From positions 1,116,001 to 1,180,000 of the forward strand of contig NZ_BHZC01000001.1 of assembly GCF_003865135.1 (NCBI RefSeq): 64,000 nt of DNA. The letters run 5' to 3'. Each line of letters starts with the position of its first letter. Position 1 is the stretch's first letter. Positions 33,249 to 60,065 of the stretch are shown piece by piece. The notes beneath the pieces were generated by a model. The model made no database searches. It was given only the letters and a program-made list of their open reading frames with translations, and was not told the origin of the DNA. Origin of the DNA: Streptomyces chrestomyceticus JCM 4735 (GTDB lineage: Bacteria > Actinomycetota > Actinomycetes > Streptomycetales > Streptomycetaceae). A program made the translations under genes and the position numbers.

Positions 33249-34081
33249 CGGCGGTGCGCACCGACGGCGGGCCGGCGACGGCAGGACGGGCGATCCAGGT
33301 CGAGGGGCTGCACAAGTCCTTCGGCGCACTGGAGGTGCTCAAGGGCATCGACTTCTCGGTGGAGCGGGGCGAGGTGGTGTGCGTGATCGGCCCTTCGGGG
33401 TCGGGCAAGTCGACGCTGCTGCGCTGTGTGAACCTGCTGGAGGAGCCGACCGCGGGCCGGGTCACCGTGGCCGGCACCGAGGTCACCGACCCGGACGTGG
33501 ACATCGACCGGGTCCGGCGCCGGATCGGGATGGTCTTCCAGTCCTTCAACCTCTTCCCGCACCTGACCGTGCTGGAGAATCTGACCATCGCCCAGCGGCG
33601 GGTGCTGCGCCGCGACCGGGCCGCGGCGGAACGGACCGCGCGCGCCAATCTCGCGCGGGTCGGTTTGAGCGACAAGGAGACCGCGTATCCGGCGCAGTTG
33701 TCGGGCGGCCAGCAGCAGCGGGTGGCCATCGCCCGCGCGCTGTCCATGGAGCCGGAGCTGATGCTCTTCGACGAGCCGACCTCCGCGCTCGACCCGGAGC
33801 TGGTGGGCGACGTGCTGGCGGTGATGCGCTCCCTCGCCCAGGACGGTATGACGATGCTCGTCGTCACCCACGAGATGAGCTTCGCGCGGGAGGTCGCCGA
33901 CCGGGTGGTGTTCATGGACGGCGGGGTCATCGTCGAGGAGGGGCCGCCGGAGCGGGTGGTGGCCGATCCGCAGCACGAGCGGACCCGGACGTTCCTGGCC
34001 CGGGTGCTCGATCCGGCGGCCGCCGGGCTCAGCGAGGTGTCGGAGGCCGGTGCGCAGGGGCCGGAGGAGGAGCGGGCTTAG
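33245..34081 (+). CDS. Polar amino-acid ABC importer, ATPase (GlnQ-like)
   Basis: 278 residues. Walker [11 protein letters not shown]-loop [12 protein letters not shown], signature LSGGQQQR, Walker [13 protein letters not shown] and switch HE in [12 protein letters not shown] are all canonical. It powers the permease at 32463. The GTG start overlaps the permease stop by four bases. The C-terminal ~20 residues are an acidic, alanine-rich tail. Confidence 0.92.
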
Positions 34082-34190
34082 ATCCTGTCATGACCGAGCG
34101 GGCGGCAGGCGGCGCCTGGTACGTTGCGCGCCCGGTACCCGGCGGGCATCGTCGCGGGCCCGCCGCCCGCTCCCCACCTGGAGGCACCGC

Positions 34191-35156
34191 TTGTTCGTCG
34201 ACCTGCCCCTCGACCAGTTGCGCAGCTACCGTCCGCCGCTGCCCGAACCCGACGGTTTCGACGCGTTCTGGCGGCGCACGCTGGACGAGGCCGGTACGTA
34301 CGACCTCGACGCGCGCTTCGAGGAGACCGACGCGGGCCTGTCGCTGCTGCACACGTACGACATGGAGTTCTCCGGCTTCGGCGGGCACCGCATCCGGGGC
34401 TGGTTCCTGCTGCCCCGGGAGGCGAGCGGTCCGCTGCCCTGCGTCGTGCAGTATCTCGGGTACGGCAGCGGCCGGCTGCATCCGCAGGACTGGCTGCTGT
34501 GGCCGGTGTCGGGCTACGCCACGCTGGTCATGGACACCCGGGGGCAGAGCGGCCCCAACCGGCCCGGCGACACCCCCGACCCGGTCGGCTCCCCCCATCC
34601 GGGTGTGCCCGGCAAGATGACGCAGGGGCTGCTCGACCCGGACGAGTACTACTACCGCCGGGTCTACACCGACGGCGTACGGGCCGTGGCGGCAGCGCGC
34701 GGTCACGCGGCGGTGGACGCCGGGCGGGTGGTGGTGGCGGGCGGCAGCCAGGGCGGCGCCATCGCGCTGGCCGTCGCCGGACTGGTGCCCGGGCTCGCGG
34801 GCGCGCTGATCGACGTACCGTTCCTGACGCACGTCCGGCGCGCCGTCGAGATCACCGACGAAGGCCCGTACGGCGAACTCTCCCGCTACCTCGCGGGCGC
34901 CCGGACCGAGGTGGAAGCCGCCCTGCACACCCTCGACCACTTCGACGGCCTGAACTTCGCGGCCCGCGCGACCGCCCCCGCGCTCTTCGGTACCGCGCTG
35001 CGCGACCCGATCACGCCCGCCTCCACCGGCTTCGCCGCGTACCACCACTACGCGGGCGCCAAGGAGCTGCGGCTGTGGCGGTTCAACGGGCACGAGAGCG
35101 GCGGCGGGCACCAGCGGACGGAGGAGATCCGCTTCTTGCGCAAGCTGTTCGGCTGA
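34191..35156 (+). CDS. Acetylxylan esterase / cephalosporin-C deacetylase family hydrolase (AXE1)
   Basis: 321 residues, alpha/beta hydrolase of carbohydrate-esterase family 7 type. Nucleophile S186 sits in GGSQGG, with the acid in RDPITP and the histidine in the C-terminal GHESGGGH. Substrate-face motifs RGQSGPN and YYYRRVYTDGVRA are typical. It deacetylates xylooligosaccharides or other acetyl esters in the cytoplasm, as there is no signal peptide. The TTG start at 34191 is well placed six bases after GGAGG. It is next to, and convergent with, xylA, consistent with xylan breakdown. Confidence 0.88.
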   Translation: MFVDLPLDQLRSYRPPLPEPDGFDAFWRRTLDEAGTYDLDARFEETDAGLSLLHTYDMEFSGFGGHRIRGWFLLPREASGPLPCVVQYLGYGSGRLHPQDWLLWPVSGYATLVMDTRGQSGPNRPGDTPDPVGSPHPGVPGKMTQGLLDPDEYYYRRVYTDGVRAVAAARGHAAVDAGRVVVAGGSQGGAIALAVAGLVPGLAGALIDVPFLTHVRRAVEITDEGPYGELSRYLAGARTEVEAALHTLDHFDGLNFAARATAPALFGTALRDPITPASTGFAAYHHYAGAKELRLWRFNGHESGGGHQRTEEIRFLRKLFG

Positions 35157-35186: not shown

Positions 35187-36350
35187 TCAGCGCGCCCGCA
35201 GCAGGTGGTCCATGGCGAGCTGGTCGAGTTGTTCGAACGCCATGCCGCGCGCGGCGGCCGCCTCCACGTCGAAGGACTCGTAGGCCGTACGCTCCGCGAG
35301 CAGGCCGGCGAGTCCGTCCTGGGCGGTGGGCCGGGCCAGCTCGTCCAGTCGGGAGGCGCGCAGTGCCTCCTGGACGGCCGGGTCGGCGCGGAAGGCCGCC
35401 GCGCGCTCCTTGAGGATCAGGTAGGTGCGCATGCAGCCGGCCGCCGAGGCCCACACCCCGTCCAGGTCTTCGGTGCGCGGCGGCTTGAAGTCGAAGTGCC
35501 TGGGCCCGTCGTAGCCCGCCGTCTCCAGCAGGTCCACCAGCCAGAAGGCGGCGCGCAGGTCCCCGGCGCCGAAGCGCAGGTCCTGGTCGTACTTGACGCC
35601 GGACTGCCCGTTCAGGTCGATGTGGAAGAGCTTGCCGGCCCACAGGGCCTGGGCGATGCCGTGCGGGACGTTGAGGCCGGCCATCTGCTCGTGCCCGACC
35701 TCCGGGTTGACGCCGTACAGCTCGGGCCGCTCCAGCCGTTCGATGAAGGCGAGGGCGTGGCCGACGGTGGGCAGCAGGATGTCGCCCCGCGGCTCGTTGG
35801 GCTTCGGTTCGATGGCGAACCGCAGGTCGTAGCCCTGCTCGACGACGTACTGGCCGAGCAGGTCGAACGCCTCCCGCATCCGGTCCAGCGCCGCGCGCAC
35901 GTCCTTGGCCGCGCCGGACTCCGCGCCCTCGCGCCCGCCCCACGCCACATACGTACGGGCGCCCAGCTCGGCCGCGAGGTCGATGTTCCGCAGGGTCTTG
36001 CGCAGGGCGTAGCGCCGGACGTCGCGGTCGTTGGCGGTGAACGCGCCGTCCTTGAACACGGGGTGGGTGAAGAGATTGGTCGTGGCCATCGGCACGGTCA
36101 GGCCGGTGGCGTCCAGCGCCTGGCGGAAGCGCTTGACCGCCGCCTCGCGCGCGACGTCGCCGGAGCCGAAGGGGATCAGGTCGTCGTCGTGGAAGGTGAT
36201 GCCGTACGCGCCCAGTTCCGCCAGCCGGTGGACGGACTCGACCGGGTCGAGGGGGCGGCGGGTGGCGTCCCCGAAGGGATCGCGGCCCTGCCAGCCGACC
36301 GTCCACAGACCGAAACTGAACTTGTCCTCGGGCACGGGCTGACAGCTCAT
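35187..36350 (-). CDS. xylA: Xylose isomerase
   Basis: 387 residues, the classic Streptomyces enzyme converting D-xylose to D-xylulose (and glucose to fructose) with two divalent metals. Catalytic H54 and D57 lie in ITFHDDDL; metal and substrate residues are in [11 protein letters not shown] and [14 protein letters not shown] lies five bases before ATG 36350. It is divergent from xylB with 150 bp between starts, where a shared xylose-responsive promoter would be; no operator is obvious. Confidence 0.97.
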
Positions 36351-36500: not shown

Positions 36501-37964
36501 ATGGGTACACAGGCAGCGGGACCGCTCGTCGTCGGCGTGGACAGCTCCACCCAGTCCACGAAGGCGCTCGTGGTGGACGCCGCGACCGGCGAGGTCGTGG
36601 CCCGCGGCCAGGCTCCGCACGTGGTCACCGGCGGTACGGCCGCCGACGGAGCGGACCTCGGCGGCACGGGCAAGGAGAGCGACCCCGAACAGTGGTGGCG
36701 CGCGCTCGGCGAGGCGCTGGACCAGTGCGGTGACGCCGCTCGGGAGGCGGCGGCCGTGTCCGTCGGTGGCCAGCAGCACGGCCTGGTCACCCTCGACGCG
36801 GCGGGGCGGCCGGTGCGTCCGGCGCTGCTCTGGAACGACGTACGGTCGGCGCCCCAGCACCGGCGCCTGCTGGCGGAGCACGGCGGGCCGGCGGCGTGGG
36901 CGCGGCGGGTGGGCAGCGTGCCGCTGCCGGCGTTCACCGTGACGAAGTGGGCCTGGCTGCGCGAGCACGAGCCGGCGGCGGCCGACGCGACGGCCGCGGT
37001 GCGGCTGCCGCACGACTATCTCACCGAGCGCCTCAGCGGCGAGGCGGTCACCGACCGCGGCGACGCCTCCGGGACCGGCTGGTGGTCGCCGGCCGACGAG
37101 GCGTACGACGAGGAGATCCTCGGACACATCGGCCTGGACCCGAAGGCGCTGCCGAGGGTCGCGCTGCCGGGCGAGGCGGCGGGCACCGTACGGGCCGGTG
37201 AACTGCCGCTGCCGCAGGGCGCGCTGGTCGCCGCGGGCACCGGCGACAACATGGCGGCGGCGCTGGGGCTCGGGCTGCGCCCCGGGCAGCCCGTACTGAG
37301 CCTGGGGACGTCGGGCACGGTCTACGCGGTGTCCACCCGGCGTCCGGCCGGCGATCCGACGGGGACGGTGGCCGGGTTCGCCGACGCGCGCGGCGACTGG
37401 CTTCCCCTGGCCTGCACCCTGAACTGCACGCTGGCCGTGGACCGGGTCGCGGCCCTGCTCGGCCTGGGCCGGGAGGACGTCGAGCCCGGCGGGTCGGCGG
37501 TGATGCTGCCCTTCCTCGACGGTGAGCGCACGCCCGACCTGCCGCAGGCGTCCGGGCTGCTGCACGGCCTGCGGCACGACACGACACGCGGTCAACTGCT
37601 CCAGGCGGCGTACGACGGTGCGGTGTTCGCGCTGCTCCAGGCGCTGGACCGGATCGTGGACGAGGACGTATCGGCCGACGCGCCGCTGCTGCTGATCGGC
37701 GGCGGCGCGCGCGGGAACGCGTGGCGGGACACCGTACGCCGCCTCTCGGGGCGGCCGGTGGTGGTGCCGGAGGCCCGCGAGCTGGTCGCCCTGGGTGCGG
37801 CGGCGCAGGCGGCGGGGCTGCTGCTGGGCGAGGACCCGGCGGCGGTGGCACGGCGGTGGGGGACGGCGCGCGGCGCCGAGTATCCGGCGGTGCCGTGCGA
37901 CACGGCGGCGCGGGAGCGGCTGGCGGAGACGCTGGCGGCGGGCGGGCCGCTGCTGGGGGCCTGA
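36501..37964 (+). CDS. xylB: Xylulokinase (FGGY family)
   Basis: 487 residues. It phosphorylates D-xylulose to xylulose-5-phosphate for the pentose-phosphate pathway. The ATPase fold starts at [27 protein letters not shown] holds the catalytic neighbourhood, with GDASGTGWW and [19 protein letters not shown] as further family motifs. N- and C-termini are close to minimal, with no long disordered tail of the kind that targets enzymes into family 2 encapsulins. The gene runs divergently from xylA and points towards two encapsulin genes. Confidence 0.95.
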
Positions 37965-38071
37965 CCGGGGCATATTCCTCCGGGGCAAACGGCGGCCGGA
38001 ACTCCGCATCCGGTCAGCGGATTCGGACGGCGCCGTACCGCGAGCCCGGATCTTGTGATGGGGTGCCGGGC

Positions 38072-38374
38072 ATGAGCATCTTTGTTCGTGCCCGGTTCGA
38101 CGTCAGCGACCGCCGGCAGGACGGCACCGAGCGGAGTGCCACCGCTCTCCACGAGGCGGCCGGTCCGGAGCCGTGCGGCCCGACCTCTCGCTGGTTCACC
38201 CTCCCGGAGCCCGGCGCCTACCTGGTGCTGGAGGAGTACGCCGACCCGGCGGTGCCCCCGGCACCCCCGGAGCACGCCGCCGGGCTGCTGACGAGCCTGG
38301 GCCGGTGTGCCGACATGGCGTTCGCCGAGATGTACGGGCCGCTCGGGGGCGGCCGGACGGACGTCGCCGGCTGA
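38072..38374 (+). CDS. Small hypothetical protein between xylB and encapsulin genes
   Basis: 100 residues, no membrane segment. Begins [17 protein letters not shown] and ends [18 protein letters not shown]; a middle segment [17 protein letters not shown] suggests a compact alpha/beta or dimeric ferredoxin-like fold. Not recognised. It lies 107 bp after xylB on the same strand and 401 bp before the first encapsulin gene. Confidence 0.5.
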
Positions 38375-38775
38375 GGTCCCGGCCGTCCGCGGATCGGGCT
38401 GCCCGAGGGGCCGTCCCGGTCCCGCATGCCGCGCCACGCGCCGGTCCCCGACGCCCCGCCTGCCGGTCCCGCACGGCCGCCACGGACCGGTTTACCGCCG
38501 GAGAATGAACCGCTCCGTCACCTCGTCGGCTTTCCGCCGGCACCGCGCCTTCCGCTTGCCGGTCCGACGGAATCACCCCGGCACACTTTCCACCGACGGA
38601 TTCCACTAAACCTGTCCAGCTCCATTATTTTTCATGCCACTCTTTTGAGTGATTGCCCGGATTAAAACAACACGTCTATGTTCAGTGCGGCGAGCGGCTC
38701 GGACCTCGCCTCACGGAACGGCCGTGGCTCCGGCCGCCGTCCGATGGTCAACTTCCCAAGATTGGTGGCGAAGCC
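38375..38775. other. Intergenic region carrying the probable encapsulin promoter
   Basis: The first 230 bases are GC-rich and featureless. Positions ~38605-38690 are distinctly AT-richer than the surroundings and contain an inverted repeat CACTC-TTTT-GAGTG at 38638-38651. This is a likely promoter/operator zone for the two shell genes. No -35/-10 pair is convincing. Confidence 0.4.
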
Positions 38776-40185
38776 GTGACGGTTACCGACGAGACAATTC
38801 CCGGCCCCGGGGGCGAGACACAGAATTCCAGCCTGACGACGGGCGCGGCACGCAACCTGGCCACCACCACCAAGACCGTCCCGCAGATGCAGGGCATCAC
38901 CTCGCGCTGGCTGCTGCGGCTGCTGCCCTGGGTGCAGGTCTCGGGCGGCACGTACCGCGTCAACCGGCGGCTGACCTACACCGTCGGCGACGGACGCGTG
39001 GACTTCGCCGTCTCCGGCACCGAAGTATCGATCATCCCCGACGAACTGCGCGAACTGCCCGCGCTGCGCGACTTCACCGACAGCGAGGTGCTCGGCGCGC
39101 TCGGCGAGCGCTTCGTCCAGCAGGAGTACGCGCCCGGCGACGTGATCGCCGCGGCGGGCACGCCGGCCGACCGCCTGGTGCTCGTCGCACACGGCCGGGT
39201 CGACCGGATCGGCGCCGGAAAGTACGGCGACGAAACGGTTCTGGGGGCCCTGGCCGGGGGCGACCACCTCGGCGACGACCTGCTCACCGACCCCGCCGCG
39301 TCCTGGCCGTACACCTATCGCGCGGTGACCCGGGTGACCGTCATGGCGCTGCCCCGGGAGGCCGCGCAGGAGGTCACGGACCGCTCCCCGCAGCTTCGCG
39401 AACACCTCGCGGCGGCCGGGACGGACACCGCGCCGCCGCGCAACGCCAGCGGCGAGTCGGCCATCGAGGTCGCCTCGGGCCACCACGGCGAACCCCGGGT
39501 GCCCGGCACCTTCGCCGACTACGAACTCACGCCGCGCGAGTACGAGCTGAGCGTCGCCCAGACGGTGCTGCGGGCCCACACCCGGGTCGGCGACCTGTAC
39601 AGCGACCCGATGAACCAGGTCGAGGAACAGTTGCGGCTGACCATCCAGGCGCTGCGCGAGCGCCAGGAGCACGAGATGGTCAACAACCGTGAGTTCGGCC
39701 TGCTGCACAACGCCGACCTCACCCAGCGCGTCCGTACCCGCAGCGGTCCGCCCACCCCCGACGACCTGGACGAACTGCTCGCGACGGTCTGGAAGGACCC
39801 GTCCTTCCTGCTCGCCCACCCCAAGGCCATCTCCGCCTTCGGCCGGCAGTGCAGCGCCCGCGGACTGTACCCGACGGCGGTCGACTTCATGGGGCACTCA
39901 CTGCCCTCCTGGCGCGGCGTGCCCATCTTCCCGTGCAACAAGATTCCGGTCACCGCCGACGGCACCAGTTCCTTTCTGGTGATGCGTACCGGCGAGGAGA
40001 AGCAGGGTGTCGTCGGCCTGCACCAGACGGGAATTCCCGACGAATACGAACCGGGTCTCTCGGTCCGCTTCATGGGCGTCAGCGACCAGGCGATCGCCAA
40101 CTACCTGGTGAGCACCTACTACTCCGCCGCGATCCTCGTGCCGGACGCGCTGGGAATTCTGGAAGACGTACAGACCGGCCAATGA
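38776..40185 (+). CDS. Family 2B encapsulin nanocompartment shell protein (copy 1)
   Basis: 469 residues. Order: short disordered N-arm; conserved [16 protein letters not shown] (~residues 25-40); a cyclic-nucleotide-binding-like domain (~90-215, with [20 protein letters not shown]); then the HK97-type shell domain (~235-469) with [18 protein letters not shown] and [10 protein letters not shown]. Such proteins assemble into icosahedral shells that enclose an enzyme. The nucleotide-binding cassette reads [10 protein letters not shown], lacking the usual glutamate. GTG 38776 was chosen by comparison with copy 2; its ribosome site is poor and upstream in-frame starts exist. Followed 84 bp later by copy 2. 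Confidence 0.9.
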
Positions 40186-40269
40186 ACCACCGCATTTCAG
40201 CCATGGCAGACCATTGAAGAACCGTTTGCCGAGAAATGACGCACGACGCCGAACGAGCGACAGGAACAG

Positions 40270-41700
40270 GTGAAACCCCCCATGACCACACCGGCGGACC
40301 CGACGTCCGGACCCGGCGCCACCCCGGACACCGAGCAGGCGCGCACCAGCCTGGCGACAGCCGCGGCACGCAATCTGGCCACCACGACCAAGACCGTGCC
40401 GCAGATGCAGGGGATCTCCTCCCGCTGGCTGCTGCGCGTGCTGCCCTGGACCCAGGTCTCCGGCGGTACGTACCGCGTCAACCGGCGGCTGACCCACACC
40501 CTCGGGGACGGCCGGGTCGAGTTCACCAGCACCGGTTCGGACGTCCGGGTCATCCCCGCGGAGCTGCGGGAGCTGCCGCCGCTGCGCGACTTCGACGACC
40601 CGGCGGTGCTGGAGGCGCTGGCCGGCCGGTTCGTCCAGGAGGAGCACGCGCCCGGCGACGTACTGGCCGAGCGGGGCGCGCCGGCCGACCGGGTCGTGCT
40701 GATCGCGCACGGCAAGCTGAACCGGATCGGCGCCGGCAAGTACGGTGACGAAACGGTCCTCGGCGTGCTCGCGGACGGCGACCACCTGGGCGAGGCGGCG
40801 CTGCTGTCGCCCGACGCGACCTGGGAGCACTCCGTACGGGCCGTGACCCGGGTGACCGTACTGACGCTGCCCCGCGCCGAGTACGAACAGCTCGCGGACC
40901 GCTCCCCCGCGCTGCGCGAACACCTGGAACGTTTCCGCACGGCCCAGGTCCCGCCGCAGAACAAGCACGGCGAGGCGGCCATCGACGTCATCTCGGGCCA
41001 TGTCGGCGAGCCCGCGCTGCCGGGCACCTTCGTCGACTACGAGCTGGCGCCCCGGGAGTACGAGCTGAGCGTCGCGCAGACCGTACTGAAGATCCACACC
41101 CGGGTCGCCGACCTCTACAACGACCCGATGAACCAGCTCGACCAGCAGCTTCGGCTGACCATCGAGGCGCTGCGCGAGCGCCAGGAGCACGAGATGGTCA
41201 ACAACCGCGAGTTCGGCCTGCTGCACAACGCCGACCTCAAGCAGCGCATCCACACCCGCAGCGGCCCGCCCACCCCCGACGACCTCGACGAGCTGATCTC
41301 GCGGCGCCGCAAGACCCAGTACCTGCTGGCGCACCCGCGCACCATCGCGGCGATCGGCCGGGAGTGGAACGCCCGCGGCATCTACCCGACCGGCGCGGAG
41401 ATCGGCGGCACGGCCGTCCGGGCCTGGCGCGGCATCCCGCTGCTGCCGTGCAACAAGATCCCGATCAACCCCGACCAGACCAGCTCGGTCATCGCCATGC
41501 GGGTGGGCGAGGAGAACCAGGGCGTGGTGGGGCTGCACCAGACGGGCATTCCCGACGAGTACCAGCCCGGCCTGTCGGTCCGTTTCATGGGCATCAACGA
41601 GCAGGCGGTCATCAACTACCTGGTCAGCGCCTACTATTCGGCGGCCGTCCTGGTGCCGGACGCGCTGGGCATCCTGGAGGACGTCGAGATCGGGCACTAG
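40270..41700 (+). CDS. Family 2B encapsulin nanocompartment shell protein (copy 2)
   Basis: 476 residues, colinear with copy 1 and very similar along the whole length. The same order is seen: N-arm, [17 protein letters not shown], cyclic-nucleotide-binding-like domain (~100-225) and shell domain (~235-476), ending DALGILEDV. The cassette here is [11 protein letters not shown], keeping the glutamate but with no arginine where CRP has its phosphate contact. Two adjacent shell genes suggest a mixed, two-component shell. GTG 40270 follows AGGA; ATG 40282 is equally possible. A hairpin 56 bp downstream probably ends the transcript. Confidence 0.9.
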
Positions 41701-42254
41701 GCAGCGCCTCGGTCCGGCGGAAGCCACGCCTCCCGTCGGCACCGGCCCCCGCCCCGGGCCGGCCGGACCGCAGCTCCGGCCGGCCACCGCCCGCTGTTCC
41801 CGCGCCCGTGGTCCATGGCGCCGGGGCAGCGGGCGGAGTGCGGGTGCCGGGGCGGGAACCATGCCGTACGGCGGGCCGTTGACCGTGTGCCGGCAGTGGC
41901 TGTGGGGTCTGCGGGGCACTGAGCCGCGTCTTCCGCCGTTCCGGGGCGGCTGCTTCACGCCAGGCCGGGCGACGCCGGGTGCGTACCGCTACGCGGACAC
42001 GGCCTGGCCGGAACCGGCATCCGGCAGCCGTTCGACGCCGCCCTCGCGCACGGCCCGACGGGCCCCGTCGGGGCGCTCACCACCCTCGCGGCGACCGTAC
42101 GGAACCGGGCTGGCCCCGGCACCCGAATCCGGCCGCTTCGCGCAATTCCGGCCGTGAGAGGGCCATTTGAGGGGTGGCCCGACCTTTTCGGTCGAAAGAA
42201 CAGGTTCTCCGGGAACCGCCCCGAAGGGCGGATCACGCCTTACGCTCCCTGGTC
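41701..42254. other. Intergenic region after the encapsulin pair
   Basis: Apart from the hairpin at 41757-41785 I see no gene, repeat or RNA signature. Frames in this stretch lack start sites and coding bias. The last ~100 bases should hold the promoter of the secreted protein at 42255. Confidence 0.5.
41757..41785 (+). terminator. Hairpin terminator after the encapsulin genes
   Basis: Perfect 11-bp arms GGCCGGCCGGA/TCCGGCCGGCC around a seven-base loop. There is no T-tract, as is usual in Streptomyces. Confidence 0.55.
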
Positions 42255-42797
42255 ATGCGCAGAACAATGAGCAGCTTCAGCAGGGCCGGTTTCGCCGCCC
42301 TCCTCGCCCTCGTCGTCTCCCTCCTCGGCCTGGCCGGCGCCTCCCCGGCGTCCGCCGCCGACACCCCCGCGCTCGCCTTCACCGTGGACAAGACGCAGGC
42401 CACCCCCGGCTCGGACGTCACCGTGACCATGACGTTCACCAACACCGGCACCGCCGACGTGCGGTTCGTGTGGCAGTCGTTCCAGCCCACGTGGGAGACC
42501 TCCTCCGCGAGCGGGCTGAAGTACACCTGGAAGACCTGTACTGCCGACCCCGGCGTGACCTGCACCGCCGGCCAGGGCGCCACGTACGCCGTGCCGATCG
42601 CCCCCGGTGCCACCCGTAAGGTCACCATGACCTACACCATCGGCGCCGACTCCTCCTGCGGCTACCCGGACGTCGCCTTCTACTCGTACATCTACACCGA
42701 GTTCGCCGGCGGCCAGCCCGCCAAGGACGGCACCTACTTCACCCCCGCCACCCGCGTGATCTGCCCGACCACTCCCCCGGCGGGCGCGCAGGCCTGA
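42255..42797 (+). CDS. Secreted protein with immunoglobulin-like domain
   Basis: 180 residues. Sec signal peptide with cleavage after SPASA. The mature part resembles a CARDB/NEW3-type beta-sandwich: LAFTVDKTQATPGSDVTVTM, TNTGTADVRF, APGATRKVTMTYTIG. Four cysteines (in KTCTADPGVTC, SSCGYP and RVICP) could form two disulfides. Probably an extracellular binding or structural protein; no partner is evident. ATG 42255 gives a standard signal peptide. Confidence 0.7.
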   Translation: MRRTMSSFSRAGFAALLALVVSLLGLAGASPASAADTPALAFTVDKTQATPGSDVTVTMTFTNTGTADVRFVWQSFQPTWETSSASGLKYTWKTCTADPGVTCTAGQGATYAVPIAPGATRKVTMTYTIGADSSCGYPDVAFYSYIYTEFAGGQPAKDGTYFTPATRVICPTTPPAGAQA

Positions 42798-43158: not shown

Positions 43159-44394
43159 GTGAAGAATCGATTCGTTCGTGCACGGGCGGTGCTGACGGCG
43201 CTCACGGCCTGGGGCGTACTGGCCGGGAGCGGAGTGGCCTCCGGGGCCACCGCGCAGGACGGCGCCCCGCAGCCGGGGCACGCGGCCCGCGTCGCGCCGG
43301 GCGTGACGTACCGCGCCTTCGACCTCGCGGTGGGGCGCGGCACCGCGCACGCCCACCTTCTGACGGTGGATCTGACCGACCGGCGGGTCGCGGTGGACCT
43401 GCTGTACCCCGGCGTGGTCGGCGCGCGGGCCCCGGTCTCCCGGCTGGCCGACGCGCGGTCCGCGGTGGCCGCCGTCAACGCGGACTTCTTCAACATCACC
43501 GAGACCCAGCACCCCGGCGTGGAGGCGACCGGCGCCCCCGTGGGCCCGGCCATCGCCTCGGGGCGGCACCTGAAAGCGGCGGTGCCCGACGGCCAGCGCT
43601 TCGGCCCCGCCCTGCCGCCCGGTACGAACACCAAGGACGTCATCGGCGTGGGCTTCGACCGCCGCGCGCGGCTGGACCGGCTGTCCCTGCGCGGCGCCGT
43701 CCTGACCCCGGCGGGCGCGCTCCCCCTGAAGGGCCTGAACCAGTACGCGCTGCCGGTGAACGGCATCGGCGCGTTCACGTCCCGGTGGGGCCCCACCTCG
43801 CGGGTCCGGGCGACGTGCGGCACGGACACCGACCGGGCCGCGCCGTGCAGCACGGAGACGTACGAGCTCACGGTCCGGCAGGGCCGGGTGACGGAAGCGA
43901 CGCAGGTGCCCGGCCGGGGCGGCATCCCCCGCGGGACGACGACGCTGGTCGGCCGGGAGGAGGGCGCCCGGCAACTGCGCAAGCTGCACGTCGGCGACCG
44001 GGTCCGGGTCGGCCACGCCCTGACCGGCAGGCGGCCCGCACCGCTGCGCTTCGCCGTCGGCGGCTTCCCGATCGTCCGTGGCGACGAGCCGCTGGCCGGC
44101 CTGGACACCGTCACCCCCGCCGTACGGACCGCCGCCGGCGTCGGCGCGAACGGGCGCCGACTGTTGCTGCTGGCCCTGGACGGCGCGCCGGGACGGGCCG
44201 GGATGACCGTACGCGAACTGGCCGACCTGATGGTCCAGTTGGGCGCCCGGGACGCGGTCAACCTGGACGGCGGCGGGTCCTCCACGCTCGTCACGCGCGA
44301 GCCGGGCAGCCCCGGGTCGACCGTGCGCAACCACCCGTCAGCAGGCGCGGAACGGCCGGTCCCGAACGGCATCGGCGTGTTCGCGCGAGGGTGA
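43159..44394 (+). CDS. Secreted phosphodiester glycosidase (NAGPA domain)
   Basis: 411 residues. An N-terminal signal peptide (LTALTAWGVLAGSGVASGATA) is followed by a NAGPA domain: AAVNADFFNITETQHPGVEATG and the C-terminal LMVQLGARDAVNLDGGGSSTLV (both partly quoted). These enzymes remove sugars linked through a phosphodiester, for example from cell-wall glycopolymers or phosphoglycans. GTG 43159 was chosen as it starts the signal peptide and follows a G-rich ribosome site; the frame is open upstream to 42880. Confidence 0.82.
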   Translation: MKNRFVRARAVLTALTAWGVLAGSGVASGATAQDGAPQPGHAARVAPGVTYRAFDLAVGRGTAHAHLLTVDLTDRRVAVDLLYPGVVGARAPVSRLADARSAVAAVNADFFNITETQHPGVEATGAPVGPAIASGRHLKAAVPDGQRFGPALPPGTNTKDVIGVGFDRRARLDRLSLRGAVLTPAGALPLKGLNQYALPVNGIGAFTSRWGPTSRVRATCGTDTDRAAPCSTETYELTVRQGRVTEATQVPGRGGIPRGTTTLVGREEGARQLRKLHVGDRVRVGHALTGRRPAPLRFAVGGFPIVRGDEPLAGLDTVTPAVRTAAGVGANGRRLLLLALDGAPGRAGMTVRELADLMVQLGARDAVNLDGGGSSTLVTREPGSPGSTVRNHPSAGAERPVPNGIGVFARG

Positions 44395-45743: not shown

Positions 45744-45938
45744 TCAGGGGCGGACGCTGCTGACCACGTCCGCCGCGCCGGACAGCCCGTTCTGGATGTC
45801 GGGCGCCAGGTTGCTGCCCGCCAGATAGAAGCCGAGCAGCATACAGACGAGGGCGTGCGTGAATTTCAGCCGTCCGCTGCGCAGGAAGACGACGGTCAGT
45901 ACGACGAGCAGTACGACGACCGAGATCGAGACAGCCAC
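45744..45938 (-). CDS. Small membrane protein
   Basis: 64 residues: an N-terminal membrane helix (VSISVVVLLVVLTVVFL), a short basic loop RSGRLKF, a second hydrophobic stretch (HALVCMLLGFYLAGS) and a polar tail. Resembles small membrane proteins found singly in Streptomyces genomes and elements. Role unknown. ATG 45938 follows GAGG. Confidence 0.6.
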   Translation of the reverse strand: MAVSISVVVLLVVLTVVFLRSGRLKFTHALVCMLLGFYLAGSNLAPDIQNGLSGAADVVSSVRP

Positions 45939-56342: not shown

Positions 56343-56975
56343 TCAGCGCAGGGGCGTGGAGAGCGGTGCGGGCGTGGCGGGGGCGTTGAGGCGCAGCAGC
56401 GCGGCCTGGCCGTCCCGGAGGCGCAGTTCGGTCAGCGCGCCGTTGAGGAGCTGCGGGAAGACGCGCCGGTAGTCGGCGAGCGGGATGCCCAGCAGGTGGC
56501 ACAGCAGGACGCGGACGAGGGTGGAGTGGGCGACGATCAGGACCCGGCCGTCCGGGTGGGCGCGGGCGATGTCGGCGAGGCAGTCGGCGGCGCGCAGGGC
56601 GGCGGCGCGGGGGTCCTCGCCCCCGGGCAGGTGGTGGCCGACCGGGTCGGCGAGGAACGCCGCCAGCTCGTCCGGGAAGCGCCGGCGCATCTCTGCCTTG
56701 GTCAGGCCCTCGCCGCGGCCGAAGTCCACCTCGTAGAGGCGTTCGTCGACGTGCGGGGAGAGACCGCAGGCCGCGGCGGCGGGCGCGGCGGTGCGCCGGG
56801 CGCGGGACAGCGGGGAGCACCAGACGGCGTCCAGGCGGGCGGTGGCGGCCCAGTCGGCGAGGGCCGCCGCCTGTTCCTCCCCGCGTCCGGTCAGGGCGAC
56901 GTCGGTGAGTCCGGCGTAGCGGTTCTCGGCGTGCCATTCGGTCTCGCCGTGGCGTACGAGGATGAAGTCGGTCAC
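56343..56975 (-). CDS. Histidine phosphatase family protein
   Basis: 210 residues. Phosphoglycerate-mutase-like: RHGETEWHAENRY at the start with the phosphorylated histidine, and VAHSTLVRVLL with the second histidine. Probably dephosphorylates a small phosphosugar or phospho-acid in the pathway of the two neighbouring kinases. GTG 56975 overlaps the upstream kinase stop by four bases. Confidence 0.85.
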   Translation of the reverse strand: MTDFILVRHGETEWHAENRYAGLTDVALTGRGEEQAAALADWAATARLDAVWCSPLSRARRTAAPAAAACGLSPHVDERLYEVDFGRGEGLTKAEMRRRFPDELAAFLADPVGHHLPGGEDPRAAALRAADCLADIARAHPDGRVLIVAHSTLVRVLLCHLLGIPLADYRRVFPQLLNGALTELRLRDGQAALLRLNAPATPAPLSTPLR

Positions 56976-58477
56976 GGTGCGGCCCTCCTGCGGGCGTGGT
57001 CGGCCACGGTCTGGTCGAGCCAGCCACGGCGGGTCAGTTCGTCGAGGAAGCGGAGGTAGGCGGGGAGCAGGCGGGCGGTGCGGGCCGGGTCGGGGGTGAC
57101 GGGCGTGCCGGCGCGGACCATGGCGGCGGCGGCCTCCTGGAGGGTGACGCCGCCGGAGGTGGCGGCGAGCACGGCCATGCCGAGGGCGCCTTCGGCCTGT
57201 TCGGGCAGGTGGACGGGGCGGCCGAGCAGGTCGGCGCGGAGCTGCGACCAGTAGGCGTTGCGGGCGCCGCCGCCGGTGAAGGTGAGCGGCCCGTCGACGG
57301 GGGCGCCGAGGTGGTCGAGGTAGTCGAAGCAGAGGCGCTCGACGCAGGCGACGCCGAGCAGGCAGGCGTGGAACTCCTGGGCGCGGGTGGGGACGTCGCC
57401 GAGGGTGAACGGTTCGGCGTCCGGCGCGCGGAAGGGGAAGCGTTCGCCGCCCGCCGACACGAGGGGGTAGGTGACCGCGTCCCAGTCCCGGCCGTCGCGT
57501 ACGGCCTGTGCGGTGAGCGCGTCGAGGTCGTCGCCGTTCTCGGGGGTGAAGTGCCGGGCGAGGACGCCCGCGCCGGAGCTGGAGGCGCCGCCGGGCAGCC
57601 AGTTCCCGTCCGGTCCGCGGTGGCAGTAGACGACGCCGTGCGGGTCGCGGATCAGGTGCGGGCTGGTGCCCTTGAGGACGAGGGTGGTGCCGAGCACGGA
57701 GTTCCAGGCGCCGGGGGCGAGGGCGCCGGCGCCGATCTGGGCGGCGCAGCCGTCGGTCGTCCCGGCGACGACGGTGGTGCCCTCGGGGATGCCGGTGGCC
57801 GCGGCGGCCGCCGCGCAGACCGTGCCGAGGACGGTTCCGGGCCGTACGACCTGCGGCAGGACGCGCTCGGGCACGCCGAGCCGGGTGAGTTCGGCGGACG
57901 GCCAGCGCTCCTCCGTGAGGTGGTAGCCGGTCTTGAGGGCGTGACTGGCGTCGGAGGGGACCTGGTGGCCGGTGAGCCGCCAGGTGATCAGGTCGGGCTG
58001 GTGCAGCAGCCGGGCCCGCTCGCCGAGGCCGGGGTCCTGGCGCAGCAGCCAGAGCAGTTTGGGCAGGGCCCAGGAGGGCTGCATGGTGCGGTAGCCGAGG
58101 TCCTGCCACACCGCTCCCCCGGCCTCGTTGACGGCCTCCGCCTGGTCGGCGGCGCGTCCGTCGTCGTACATGAGGCCGGGGGTGAGCGGGGTGCCGTCGG
58201 CGTCGGCGAGGAGGACCGTACCGGAGGTGGCGTCGAGCGCCAGGCCGCGCACCCGGGCCGGGTCGGTCCCGGCGAGGGCCGCGCGGCAGGCGGCGGACAG
58301 GGCGCTCCACCACTGCTCGGGGTCCTGCTCGTGGCGTCTGCCGTCCCGGTGGCTCGTCAGGGGCCGGGAGGCGGCGGCGAGCAGTTGTCCGGTCCCGTCG
58401 ACGGCGACGCAGCGGGCGCTCTGCGTACCGAGGTCGAGGCCGAGCCAGACGGCGTCGGCGGTCAGGGCGTCAGACAC
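56972..58477 (-). CDS. FGGY-family sugar/polyol kinase 1
   Basis: 501 residues. FGGY fold: GLDLGTQSARCVAVD at the N-terminus, GTTDGCAAQIGAGA in the middle, and FTGGGARNAYWSQLRADLLG with the ATP-binding Gly run (partly quoted). Related to xylulokinase/ribulokinase; the exact sugar is unknown. GTG 58477 has GAGGAG upstream. Overlaps both neighbours, so it is part of a tightly coupled operon. Confidence 0.87.
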   Translation of the reverse strand: MSDALTADAVWLGLDLGTQSARCVAVDGTGQLLAAASRPLTSHRDGRRHEQDPEQWWSALSAACRAALAGTDPARVRGLALDATSGTVLLADADGTPLTPGLMYDDGRAADQAEAVNEAGGAVWQDLGYRTMQPSWALPKLLWLLRQDPGLGERARLLHQPDLITWRLTGHQVPSDASHALKTGYHLTEERWPSAELTRLGVPERVLPQVVRPGTVLGTVCAAAAAATGIPEGTTVVAGTTDGCAAQIGAGALAPGAWNSVLGTTLVLKGTSPHLIRDPHGVVYCHRGPDGNWLPGGASSSGAGVLARHFTPENGDDLDALTAQAVRDGRDWDAVTYPLVSAGGERFPFRAPDAEPFTLGDVPTRAQEFHACLLGVACVERLCFDYLDHLGAPVDGPLTFTGGGARNAYWSQLRADLLGRPVHLPEQAEGALGMAVLAATSGGVTLQEAAAAMVRAGTPVTPDPARTARLLPAYLRFLDELTRRGWLDQTVADHARRRAAP

Positions 58478-60065
58478 GGTGGGGGGCTCCTCGGTCGGGG
58501 TGTCCGGGTGGTGCGGGTATCGGGTGCGGCGGGGCCGGTGGCCGGCCGGGGGCTTCGGGGACGCACTGCCGGCCGGCTCCGGGGCGCCAGCCCGCCTCGC
58601 GGGCGAGGTCGCGCCAGTGCAGGAAGTCCTCGTACAGCTCGGCGTACCGGGCGGTGCGCTCCGGGTCGGGCTCCCAGCTCGACCGCATCCGTACGTACTT
58701 GGTGGCGGCGCTGTGCATGCTGGACTCGGCTCCGGACAGCACCAGGCCGGTGAGGAAGGCGCCCTTGGCGCCGAGTTCGGTGTCGCCGGAGCGGGCGGTC
58801 GGTACGCCCGTCGCGTCCGCGATGAGCGCGCACCAGGCGTCGCTGTTGGCGCCGCCGCCGCACAGGCGCAGTTCGGTGACGTGGGTGCGGGAGGCGGTCA
58901 GCGAGTCGCGGAGGACGAGCGAGAGGCCGTCGAAGACCGCGCGGGCCAGGTCGGCGCGGGTGTGTTCCAGGGACAGGCCCCAGAATCCGCCGCGGGCGTG
59001 CCCGTCGAGGAACGGGGCCCGCTCGCCCGCCGGGGAGAGGTACGGCAGGAACATCAGGCCGTTCGCGACCGGCTCGGACTCGAAGGCCAGCCGGGACAGT
59101 TCCGGCGGTCCGGACAGGTGCAGCGTGCGGGCGGCCCAGCCGAGCACCTCGGCGCCGTTGAGGGTCGGGAAGGCGCGCAGGACGCGTTCCCGGCCTCGGT
59201 AGGCGATGGTGATGCCGGACGGTTCGCCGGTGGTGTCCACGGTCGTACGGACGATCTCGGTGCACAGGGTGGTGCCGAGGATGCTGCACGCCTGGCCGGG
59301 GTTGACCACGCCGACGCCGCGCGCGGTGGCGGCGATGTCGTACGGCGCCATGACGACCGGGAGGCCGGCCGGCAGCCCGAGTTGGCCGGCCGCCTCGGAG
59401 GTCATCTCGGCGATCCGCTCGTGCTCGCCGAGCACCCTGGGCAGCAGCCGCTCGTACGCCGCCAGGCCGAAGAGGTCGATCAGGTACGGGTCGTACGCGC
59501 CGGTGGCGTGGTCGAGGAAGGGCGCCGAGGCGTCCGACTCGTCGACGGCGGTGACGCCGGTCAGCCGCAGGAAGAGCCAGCCGGCGGCGGTGAGCGAGGC
59601 GTGCGAGCGGGCCAGCCGGTCCGGGTCGTGCGCGGCCAGCCATGCGAAGATCGCGTTGGGCATGCCGGCGCAGGTCAGCGAGCCGTTGCGGCGGAAGGCG
59701 GCCTCCAGGACGCCGTCCCGCTGCCACTGGCCGACGAGGTCGCCGGCCCGGCCGTCGGACCACAGGATCGCGGGACCGGTGGGACGGCCGCGCTCGTCGA
59801 CGAGCCAGGCGCCGTCGCCCTGGGCGGTGAAGGAGACCAGCCATACGGGGTCGGCCGGGCCAGGGCGGCCGGCGAGTTCGGACAGGGCGTTGCGGACGGT
59901 GAAGACGACGGCGTTCCAGACGGCGTCCATGTCCTGCTCGGCCCGGCCCGGGTGGGGGCGGAGCACTTCGGTGGCGAGGCGGGAGACCGCGATCTCGCGG
60001 CCCCGGTCGTCGAAGACCACGGACTTGATCATCGTGGTGCCGACGTCGACGGTCAGTACGGACAT
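58470..60065 (-). CDS. FGGY-family sugar/polyol kinase 2
   Basis: 531 residues. FGGY fold: LTVDVGTTMIKSVVFDD, SFTAQGDGAWLVD, ILGTTLCTEIV, LCGGGANSDAWCALIADATG. Only distantly similar to kinase 1, so it probably phosphorylates a different sugar or polyol. The last ~35 residues are a proline-rich disordered tail not seen on kinase 1. Overlaps kinase 1 by eight bases and starts 13 bp after the permease. Confidence 0.87.
   Translation of the reverse strand: MSVLTVDVGTTMIKSVVFDDRGREIAVSRLATEVLRPHPGRAEQDMDAVWNAVVFTVRNALSELAGRPGPADPVWLVSFTAQGDGAWLVDERGRPTGPAILWSDGRAGDLVGQWQRDGVLEAAFRRNGSLTCAGMPNAIFAWLAAHDPDRLARSHASLTAAGWLFLRLTGVTAVDESDASAPFLDHATGAYDPYLIDLFGLAAYERLLPRVLGEHERIAEMTSEAAGQLGLPAGLPVVMAPYDIAATARGVGVVNPGQACSILGTTLCTEIVRTTVDTTGEPSGITIAYRGRERVLRAFPTLNGAEVLGWAARTLHLSGPPELSRLAFESEPVANGLMFLPYLSPAGERAPFLDGHARGGFWGLSLEHTRADLARAVFDGLSLVLRDSLTASRTHVTELRLCGGGANSDAWCALIADATGVPTARSGDTELGAKGAFLTGLVLSGAESSMHSAATKYVRMRSSWEPDPERTARYAELYEDFLHWRDLAREAGWRPGAGRQCVPEAPGRPPAPPHPIPAPPGHPDRGAPHRV

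Follow-up and report, generated by a model that had tools for sequence, protein, structure and literature searches.

The tandem shell genes of this window (the whole stretch of 64,000 nucleotides that was analysed) are tentatively read here, with somewhat less than even confidence, as encoding one mixed Enc1/Enc2 shell that has xylB as an inherited neighbour and a terpene cyclase as cargo loaded in trans. Enc1 and Enc2 would co-assemble, like their Streptomyces lydicus relatives, into a single family 2B encapsulin shell of mixed composition, and the pair would sit in an old Streptomyces cluster made up of xylA/xylB/xylR, an amidase gene, NAGPA and SMP. Under such an arrangement the position of xylB beside the shell would be a legacy of gene order and no sign of a dedicated cargo, and the true cargo would enter in trans, the best candidate being a distant geosmin-synthase-like two-domain terpene cyclase that carries PTGLGTSAAR.

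The shell pair and its neighbours

The features on which the argument draws are listed below; some of the open reading frame calls are rough picks from the G+C frame.

34050..35156, plus strand, acetyl-xylan esterase, start uncertain (PF05448, 333.4 bits)
35187..36350, minus strand, xylA, xylose isomerase of 387 aa, divergent from xylB (TIGR02631, 724 bits, cut-off 447)
36501..37964, plus strand, xylB, xylulokinase (TIGR01312, 440.6 bits, cut-off 380.25)
38072..38374, plus strand, small protein of 100 aa encoded in the xylB-Enc1 gap (PF03992-related)
38776..40185, plus strand, Enc1, predicted family 2B shell protein (NF041163, 754.7 bits; motifs TVWK and a second of 10 residues)
40282..41700, start approximate, plus strand, Enc2, predicted family 2B shell protein (NF041163, 785.0 bits; motifs RRRK and a second of 10 residues)
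43159..44394, plus strand, NAGPA-family phosphodiester glycosidase, by eye with a signal-peptide-like start (PF09992, 111.2 bits)
45744..45938, minus strand, SMP, 64-aa membrane-like protein (a relative is without Pfam match)

Enc1 and Enc2 lie next to each other on the same strand, Enc1 first, and judging from their profile matches are almost certainly family 2B encapsulin shell proteins. In both, the HK97-type shell domain scores above the family cut-off, for NF041163 (family 2B shell; cut-off 400 bits) as well as PF19307 (441.9 bits in Enc1, 463.7 in Enc2). The PF19307 match is preceded in each by an inserted cyclic-nucleotide-binding-like domain (PF00027; 46.0 bits in Enc1, 56.7 in Enc2; residues 157-244 in translation P0004, residues 125-211 in P0002). 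Together with a segment of 15 residues common to the two proteins, these matches bear out the first-pass annotation, which had described paired shell genes with a conserved segment and with nucleotide-binding-like and HK97-type domains. The proteins are 69% identical over 458 aa. By reading of the sequence, the best start of Enc1 is the GTG at 38776 and that of Enc2 the ATG at 40282, with an alternative GTG at 40270.

The best solved relatives are 9BJE for Enc1 (834.9 bits) and 9BIX for Enc2 (870.9 bits), both from S. lydicus, and the two published diagnostic motif differences (14 residues in Enc1, 14 in Enc2) are both present. The account of the S. lydicus pair in PMC12407261 includes its co-assembly and icosahedral shells, and by analogy with these relatives Enc1 and Enc2 would be expected to co-assemble into an icosahedral shell, in line with the earlier proposal of a two-component family 2B shell. 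Of the 197 shell matches, 195 passed a filter that required a length of 440 aa or more and excluded internal stops; the distinct sequences numbered 186 including the window's two, and in a tree of 106 of them the Enc1 and the Enc2 proteins of the 19 closest loci (type A) each form one starred clade. A promoter and terminator scan of 37900-42300 was uninformative: it gave no promoter-like site and, on the minus strand only, three terminator-like sites where 1.6 would be expected.

The xylB gene, at whose start (36501) the first-pass feature begins, lies 0.8 kb upstream of Enc1. Among the accessory genes commonly enriched in systems of the xylulose-kinase (XK) type, those for acetyl-xylan esterase and xylose isomerase are present in the window, and a tblastn search of the window for xylR (a ROK-type regulator taken as xylR) gave no match at 1e-5; xylR occurs in 10 of the 19 closest loci. 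The first-pass annotation had mentioned neither xylA and the esterase nor the absence of xylR. The small protein at 38072 has no direct Pfam match at 0.001, and 28 of the 35 sequences listed as its relatives, itself included, bear a precomputed PF03992 assignment (antibiotic biosynthesis monooxygenase). It was rejected as a cargo because it is present in only 3 of the 19 closest loci.

xylB as a probable inherited neighbour

The adjacency of xylB and the shell probably reflects inherited gene order and not a dedicated cargo, since the cluster of xylA/xylB/xylR, amidase, NAGPA and SMP also exists without the pair. At seven shell-less Streptomyces loci, selected because their xylB-NAGPA pairs were the closest, xylB, xylR and NAGPA lie in one cluster; xylR, SMP and PLC are held by all seven and the amidase gene by six. 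SMP is present in every one of these loci, in all 19 of type A and in 10 of the 12 of type B, a class defined by NAGPA beside the shells, so that its NAGPA count, and the zero in the remaining 48, are true by choice. In type A, the pair has xylB or xylR on one side and the next cluster gene on the other; in type B it is flanked by NAGPA and SMP. Not every genome has the shell-less cluster, because xylB and NAGPA are separated by more than 40 kb, or lie on separate contigs, in 37 of the 55 non-tandem genomes with both genes. The genome listings comprised NAGPA matches of at least 350 bits, xylB matches without the 25 lowest and Enc1 matches without the 24 lowest; tandem pairs occur in at least 20 of 150 genomes, a count that misses pairs with a weaker second shell (compare L145, L146 and L147).

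The first-pass annotation had proposed that the shell houses XylB. This inference is weakened by the sequence comparison, because pairs persist without XylB, xylB clusters without shells (the seven loci above), and XylB has neither tail nor motif. With regard to gene order, the adjacency was kept in all 19 type A loci (distance 221-2210 bp), but the Streptoverticillium-type genomes keep related pairs and have no XylB, none of the eight having a match above the XylB cut-off (best 318-335 bits against 380.25). The refuting condition named in the first-pass annotation, a lack of xylB conservation beside the pair in relatives, thus holds by half. The seven comparison genomes all exceeded that cut-off (431-452 bits), and a further pair genome, G060, had no xylB match at E<=1e-120. 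NAGPA and SMP, each beside 19 of 19 type A pairs, are as constant there as xylB. The window's XylB ends without an added tail, as the earlier reading had remarked, and shows no loading motif. Neither feature was seen in the 41 XylB rows with an identity of 70% or more, of which 34 have a shell beside them (some of the 41 represent the same genome twice, and one 31% identical row, L111, was excluded).

It is accordingly judged unlikely that XylB is the true cargo in the rimosus/lydicus clade, loaded by its folded surface, for instance via the inner loop in which the two shell proteins differ, with other clades having lost or changed the use. The full conservation in type A is nonetheless compatible with a real XylB-shell partnership, as are G055, G069 and G096, where xylA, xylB and xylR are also near the pair with no close NAGPA. 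The same partnership is favoured by the near-invariance of the Enc1 inner-loop motif AVDF.GHSLP among type A loci and by the XK systems always being two-shelled, as stated in PMC8346489 and PMC12407261. NAGPA, which at first seemed more constant than xylB, was itself rejected as the true shell partner: the same genes adjoin it without shells, the pairs of G055, G069 and G096 have none close by, and its start resembles a signal peptide.

Another explanation, that the pair serves xylulose-5-phosphate metabolism generally, with XylB making the compound in type A and a phosphoketolase using it in sister pairs, is highly improbable. Of 11 sister-clade pair loci, 5 do have a phosphoketolase gene (one scanned product matches PF03894, PF09364 and PF09363) at a distance of 29-126 bp from a shell, and two loci with other flanks have one 72-76 bp away from a single shell. 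At L154, however, and less closely at L153, the gene keeps those flanking neighbours although there is no shell, which points to inherited order. Phosphoketolase was dropped as a linking enzyme on account of these two loci.

A terpene cyclase as candidate cargo

If xylB is an inherited neighbour, the preferred reading takes the cargo from elsewhere in the genome. The candidate cyclase is encoded at about 6.813-6.815 Mb of the window's own chromosome sequence (G000:C1), 576 kb (~0.58 Mb) from the nearest shell, and its end carries a putative published family 2B loading motif; the role of this GLGTS-type motif in loading is put forward as a proposal in the published work. That the enzyme is the physiological cargo of the Enc1/Enc2 pair is possible, though open to real doubt. 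The survey of 2B shells and cyclases covered the 20 identified pair genomes, all of which, the window's included, have a two-domain cyclase with a GLGTS-type motif or variant; in 19 the motif is close to the C-terminus, and G035 has it between the domains only. No other 2B shell accompanies the pair in eight of the 20, and none of these eight is type A. The seven type A genomes hold three to five 2B shells each, and the candidate could go to another shell because the window's genome has three single ones besides the pair.

No motif-bearing (GPTGLGT-like) cyclase is encoded at the Enc1/Enc2 locus. In G089 a motif-bearing two-domain cyclase does lie between Enc1 and Enc2, but it may be another enzyme, because it is 46% identical to the window genome's cyclase and a second cyclase is encoded elsewhere in G089, far from the pair. 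Against NF041168, the NCBI profile for a family-2-encapsulin-cargo cyclase, the candidate scores 1181.8 bits in a match that spans the full length, just below the cut-off of 1200; the other motif-bearing cyclase of the window's genome is beside the single shell at 0.746 Mb and passes NF041167 (444.2 against 400). A DNA search of this genome for the motif gave two matches and a backwards control pattern also two, so the match count is not above chance, and the two matter only because both fall in terpene cyclases. Motif-bearing geosmin-synthase-like cyclases are expected to be widespread across Streptomyces generally, and for this reason the motif does not single out the pair; one of three genomes with no 2B shell above the cut-off, G102, nevertheless encodes a cyclase that bears the inter-domain motif. 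The wider proposition, that Streptomyces two-component shells are trans-loaded by geosmin-synthase-like cyclases with GLGTSAAR tags and that the published xylulose-kinase cargo class is a gene-order artefact, seems rather unlikely.

The pair could conceivably hold some other, unrecognised cargo or form a developmental protein assembly like EshA, an alternative given limited but appreciable weight. EshA is a putative family 2B relative, and the putative status of that membership counts against the EshA-like version. Its gene lies in the 2-MIB operon, and an mBio 2019 paper (PMC6428758) describes its function as unclear and 2-MIB synthesis as independent of eshA. In favour of either version, the native cargo of XK-type pairs is not known according to the authors' statement in PMC12407261, but other family 2B shells have adjacent putative cargo enzymes with shared motifs (PMC8346489).

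Significance and comparison with known systems

The XK-type two-component shell is already published, and the trans-cargo idea is the new part. The contents of such encapsulins are a question posed in the text of Dutcher et al. (2025, PMC12407261). Should the kinase be an inherited neighbour only, cargo labels that were assigned in this family from gene neighbourhood need checking against shell-less loci, and cargo searches should scan the whole genome for the tag. Should the geosmin-synthase-like cyclase be what the shell holds, compartmentalisation would extend beyond 2-MIB to a widespread soil-odour pathway.

The S. lydicus Sl-Enc1/Sl-Enc2 system, described as a two-component family 2B encapsulin (PDB 9BJE and 9BIX) in Dutcher et al. 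(2025, PMC12407261), resembles the window in tandem order, best structure matches and diagnostic motif differences. The S. lydicus locus (L047) also has xylB near the pair, and its Enc1 and the window's share 78% identity; the window differs in being without xylR and in having the small PF03992-related open reading frame in the gap. The nucleotide-binding-like domains may gate the shell through a ligand, as the first-pass annotation suggested; earlier work found no cyclic nucleotide binding, as recounted in PMC12407261. EshA of Streptomyces is similar to the window's shells as a cyclic-nucleotide-binding-like protein but belongs to a different locus, going by the operon description in PMC6428758. 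The terpene-cyclase family 2B systems (NF041167, NF041168) share the shell family, whereas no cyclase gene stands beside the window's pair. XK-type operons, of which 124 systems were reported, all in Streptomyces (Andreas and Giessen 2021, PMC8346489), match the window in having two shells with xylB, acetyl-xylan esterase and xylA nearby and differ from it in xylR, which the window lacks; the sequence comparison presented here questions the XK-type cargo label itself.

Shell genes and their locus

In a profile search, Enc1 and Enc2, the two tandem shell proteins of the window, pass the NCBI family 2B shell model NF041163 by a wide margin, and both carry the cyclic-nucleotide-binding-like domain. 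Their closest PDB entries, 9BJE for Enc1 and 9BIX for Enc2, are Sl-Enc1 and Sl-Enc2 of Streptomyces lydicus (data statement, PMC12407261). The tandem genes are real and well identified: homology makes each a family 2B shell, of a previously published kind, and we infer mixed assembly of the two from the S. lydicus relative. The genome, a single contig of 9.38 Mb, encodes three more 2B shells above the cut-off, each of them single, at 0.746, 6.236 and 8.727 Mb.

Features of the locus (window coordinates, strand)
34050-35156, +, acetyl-xylan esterase
35187-36350, -, xylA
36501-37964, +, xylB
38072-38374, +, 100-aa ORF related to PF03992 proteins, occupying the xylB-Enc1 gap
38776-40185, +, Enc1
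about 40282-41700, +, Enc2
42174-42797, +, secreted-looking 207-aa protein
43159-44394, +, phosphodiester glycosidase of the NAGPA family
56972-58477 and 58470-60065, -, two FGGY-type carbohydrate kinases (best model XylB, 191.2 and 234.9 bits)

Both FGGY-type kinases lie some 15 kb beyond the shells and score under the XylB family cut-off (TIGR01312, 380.25 bits).

Gene neighbourhood and relationships among pairs

A single scan of the genome collection, retaining the best 80 of 223 relatives, yielded 79 loci, divided into type A (19 loci, all Streptomyces, Enc1 76-98% identical), type B (12 further Streptomyces loci, chosen for NAGPA adjoining the shells) and the remaining 48. Neighbours were counted by tblastn, some loci being truncated by contig ends. 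Among these best 80 of 223 relatives, xylB was present in 19/19 type A, 4/12 type B and 1/48 remaining loci, the last a kinase of 31% identity; NAGPA in 19/19 type A loci, its 12/12 and 0/48 in the other sets following from selection; and SMP, a 64-aa membrane-like protein, in 19/19 and 10/12. Type A loci had the amidase in 16/19 and xylR, a ROK-type regulator placed in the gap that the 100-aa ORF occupies here, in 10/19; neither the window nor the three loci nearest to it has the amidase. The type A pair follows xylB or xylR and precedes the amidase, where those exist, and the type B pair lies in the NAGPA-SMP interval. Three further genomes (G055, G069 and G096) have it between PLC and SMP, with xylA, xylB and xylR near and a close NAGPA absent. 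By gene order, there has been a shift inside the cluster, either of the pair or of its flanks.

The cluster also occurs without shells. Seven Streptomyces loci, selected as the closest xylB-NAGPA pairs without known tandem shells, show the order xylA(-)/xylB-xylR-amidase...NAGPA-SMP(-)-PLC(-), with xylR, SMP and PLC each in 7/7, amidase and xylA each in 6/7, and xylR and the amidase 271-1627 bp apart (six measured). Among the matches listed for a 150-genome draw from the genus, 55 non-tandem genomes have both xylB and NAGPA; no more than 40 kb separates the two genes in 18 of these, and the other 37 have them at a greater distance or on separate contigs.

A quick maximum-likelihood tree of 106 shell rows places type A Enc1 in one starred clade and type A Enc2 in another. 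Second genes fall on the Enc2 side in type B (12/12) and in G055, G069 and G096 (3/3); first genes fall on the Enc1 side in 9/11 and 3/3, respectively. The exceptions, L067 and L077, group with Enc2 in the body of the protein and retain the Enc1 motif TVWK, which looks like gene conversion inside the pair. Type B Enc1 forms a clade apart from type A Enc1 within a larger starred set whose forks are unsupported, so the pairs of the different types are likely, though not proven, orthologues. TVWK-like versus RR.R-like motifs tell the first gene from the second in almost every tandem locus, the exceptions being L110 and L057, which has three shells. A single shell with an Enc2-type motif was found at the cluster of Streptomyces philanthi bv. 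triangulum (7.3 Mb); Enc1 seems to have been lost there, in agreement with its published inability to assemble alone (PMC12407261).

XylB and phosphoketolase as neighbours

The first-pass annotation had proposed a two-component shell housing or regulating XylB, and had noted that XylB has no targeting tail. The pair is kept at the cluster in S. griseocarneus, S. hiroshimensis, S. olivoreticuli, S. sp. ISL-11, S. olivoverticillatus, S. triculaminicus, S. mashuensis and S. cinnamoneus (named by loci), and no protein of these eight genomes reaches the XylB cut-off (best score 318-335 bits). By score alone, that best kinase is apparently shared with xylB-bearing genomes, where it reaches 303-318 bits; three type A genomes and four of type B with xylB nearby, taken for comparison, pass at 431-452 bits. 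At E<=1e-120, xylB had no match in G018 and G035, apparently two of the eight (100% and 99% complete), or in G060, a further pair genome.

The comparison of XylB ends covered 41 rows with identity of 70% or more (34 adjoining shells, 7 not; some genomes counted twice). Past the conserved core lie 49-50 residues beside shells, excepting L134 (60 residues) and L091 and L120 (not measurable), and 49-54 without shells; XylB starts about 12-13 residues ahead of the core, where clear. The proposed loading signals, GPTGLGT-like motifs described in 2-MIB-synthase-like and geosmin-synthase-like cyclases (PMC8346489), occur in 0/41 rows. The comparison bears out the missing tail. Because of the neighbourhood, xylB-presence and XylB-end comparisons, we read xylB as a bystander that would stay beside the pair through inherited gene order; homology supports the two-component shell, and these comparisons speak against XylB as its content.

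Phosphoketolase would connect to XylB via xylulose 5-phosphate. In 5 of 11 sister-clade pairs (some truncated by contig ends) it is the tail-to-tail neighbour of the shells, and in two other loci it adjoins a single shell. We set it aside as a linking enzyme, since L154 and, less closely, L153 carry it amid the same flanking genes with the shell absent. Its position therefore looks like inherited order, perhaps not in the two single-shell loci (L143:8709-12610 and L144), where an Enc2-type shell is tail to tail with phosphoketolase amid flanks that differ from those around the sister-clade pairs. The window's genome has phosphoketolase genes at 1336460 and 9216211 of its contig, the former grouping with shell-adjacent ones from other genomes.

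A candidate cargo encoded elsewhere

Searched for the loading motif, the window's genome yielded two matches, not above the backwards control, and both fall in terpene cyclases. The first cyclase adjoins the single shell at 0.746 Mb and passes NF041167, one of the existing NCBI models for family 2 cargo cyclases. The second, at 6.813-6.815 Mb and 576 kb from the nearest shell, has two domains and the motif at its C-terminus; it matches cargo model NF041168 over the full length at 1181.8 bits, just below the cut-off of 1200. The label geosmin-synthase-like is ours, based on this two-domain build and on the description in PMC8346489.

Among the matches listed for the 150-genome draw, the two-domain cyclase occurs in 20/20 tandem genomes, and the examined copy carries a GLGTS-type motif in all 20 (near the C-terminus in 19), accepting variants such as GPRGLGTSAAR (G138), GPAGLGTAAAR (G073) and TPTGLGTSGTR (G018); an inter-domain copy is not in every one. 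The pair is the sole 2B shell in 8/20, and there the cyclase is megabases off or on another contig; one of the eight, G089, has a second motif-bearing two-domain cyclase between Enc1 and Enc2. Since the eight include no type A genome, the argument reaches the window's own clade by extension. The distance from a cyclase copy to a single shell is 294 bp in S. violens and 2.7 kb in G048, so the cyclase has its own shells elsewhere. Of three genomes examined without a shell over the cut-off, all fragmented assemblies, two showed no two-domain cyclase, and the third has a cyclase with the inter-domain motif and without the terminal one. At G036:C2:833342-834277, about 0.9 kb away from a match to a terpene cyclase, a partial 2B shell match is interrupted by a stop codon and is probably a decayed copy. 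As a testable proposal, a two-domain cyclase encoded far from the pair would enter the Enc1/Enc2 shell in trans.

Comparison with published systems

In the open-licence literature searched, no paper joined encapsulin with phosphoketolase, the 2021 survey (PMC8346489) alone joined it with geosmin synthase, and none, by title or abstract opening, treated distant-cargo loading into such pairs. PMC12407261 describes 503 two-component operons in five types, always with two shells in the xylulose-kinase (XK) operons, and diagnostic motifs; Enc1 and Enc2 form mixed shells, and Enc1 alone does not assemble. It also reports that earlier work did not find the inserted domain to bind cyclic nucleotides and that the native cargo of XK systems was not determined. 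PMC8346489 places XK systems (n=124) exclusively in Streptomyces, with kinases lacking consistent disordered stretches. With these papers in print, the main observation of the first-pass annotation and the missing tail were already known.
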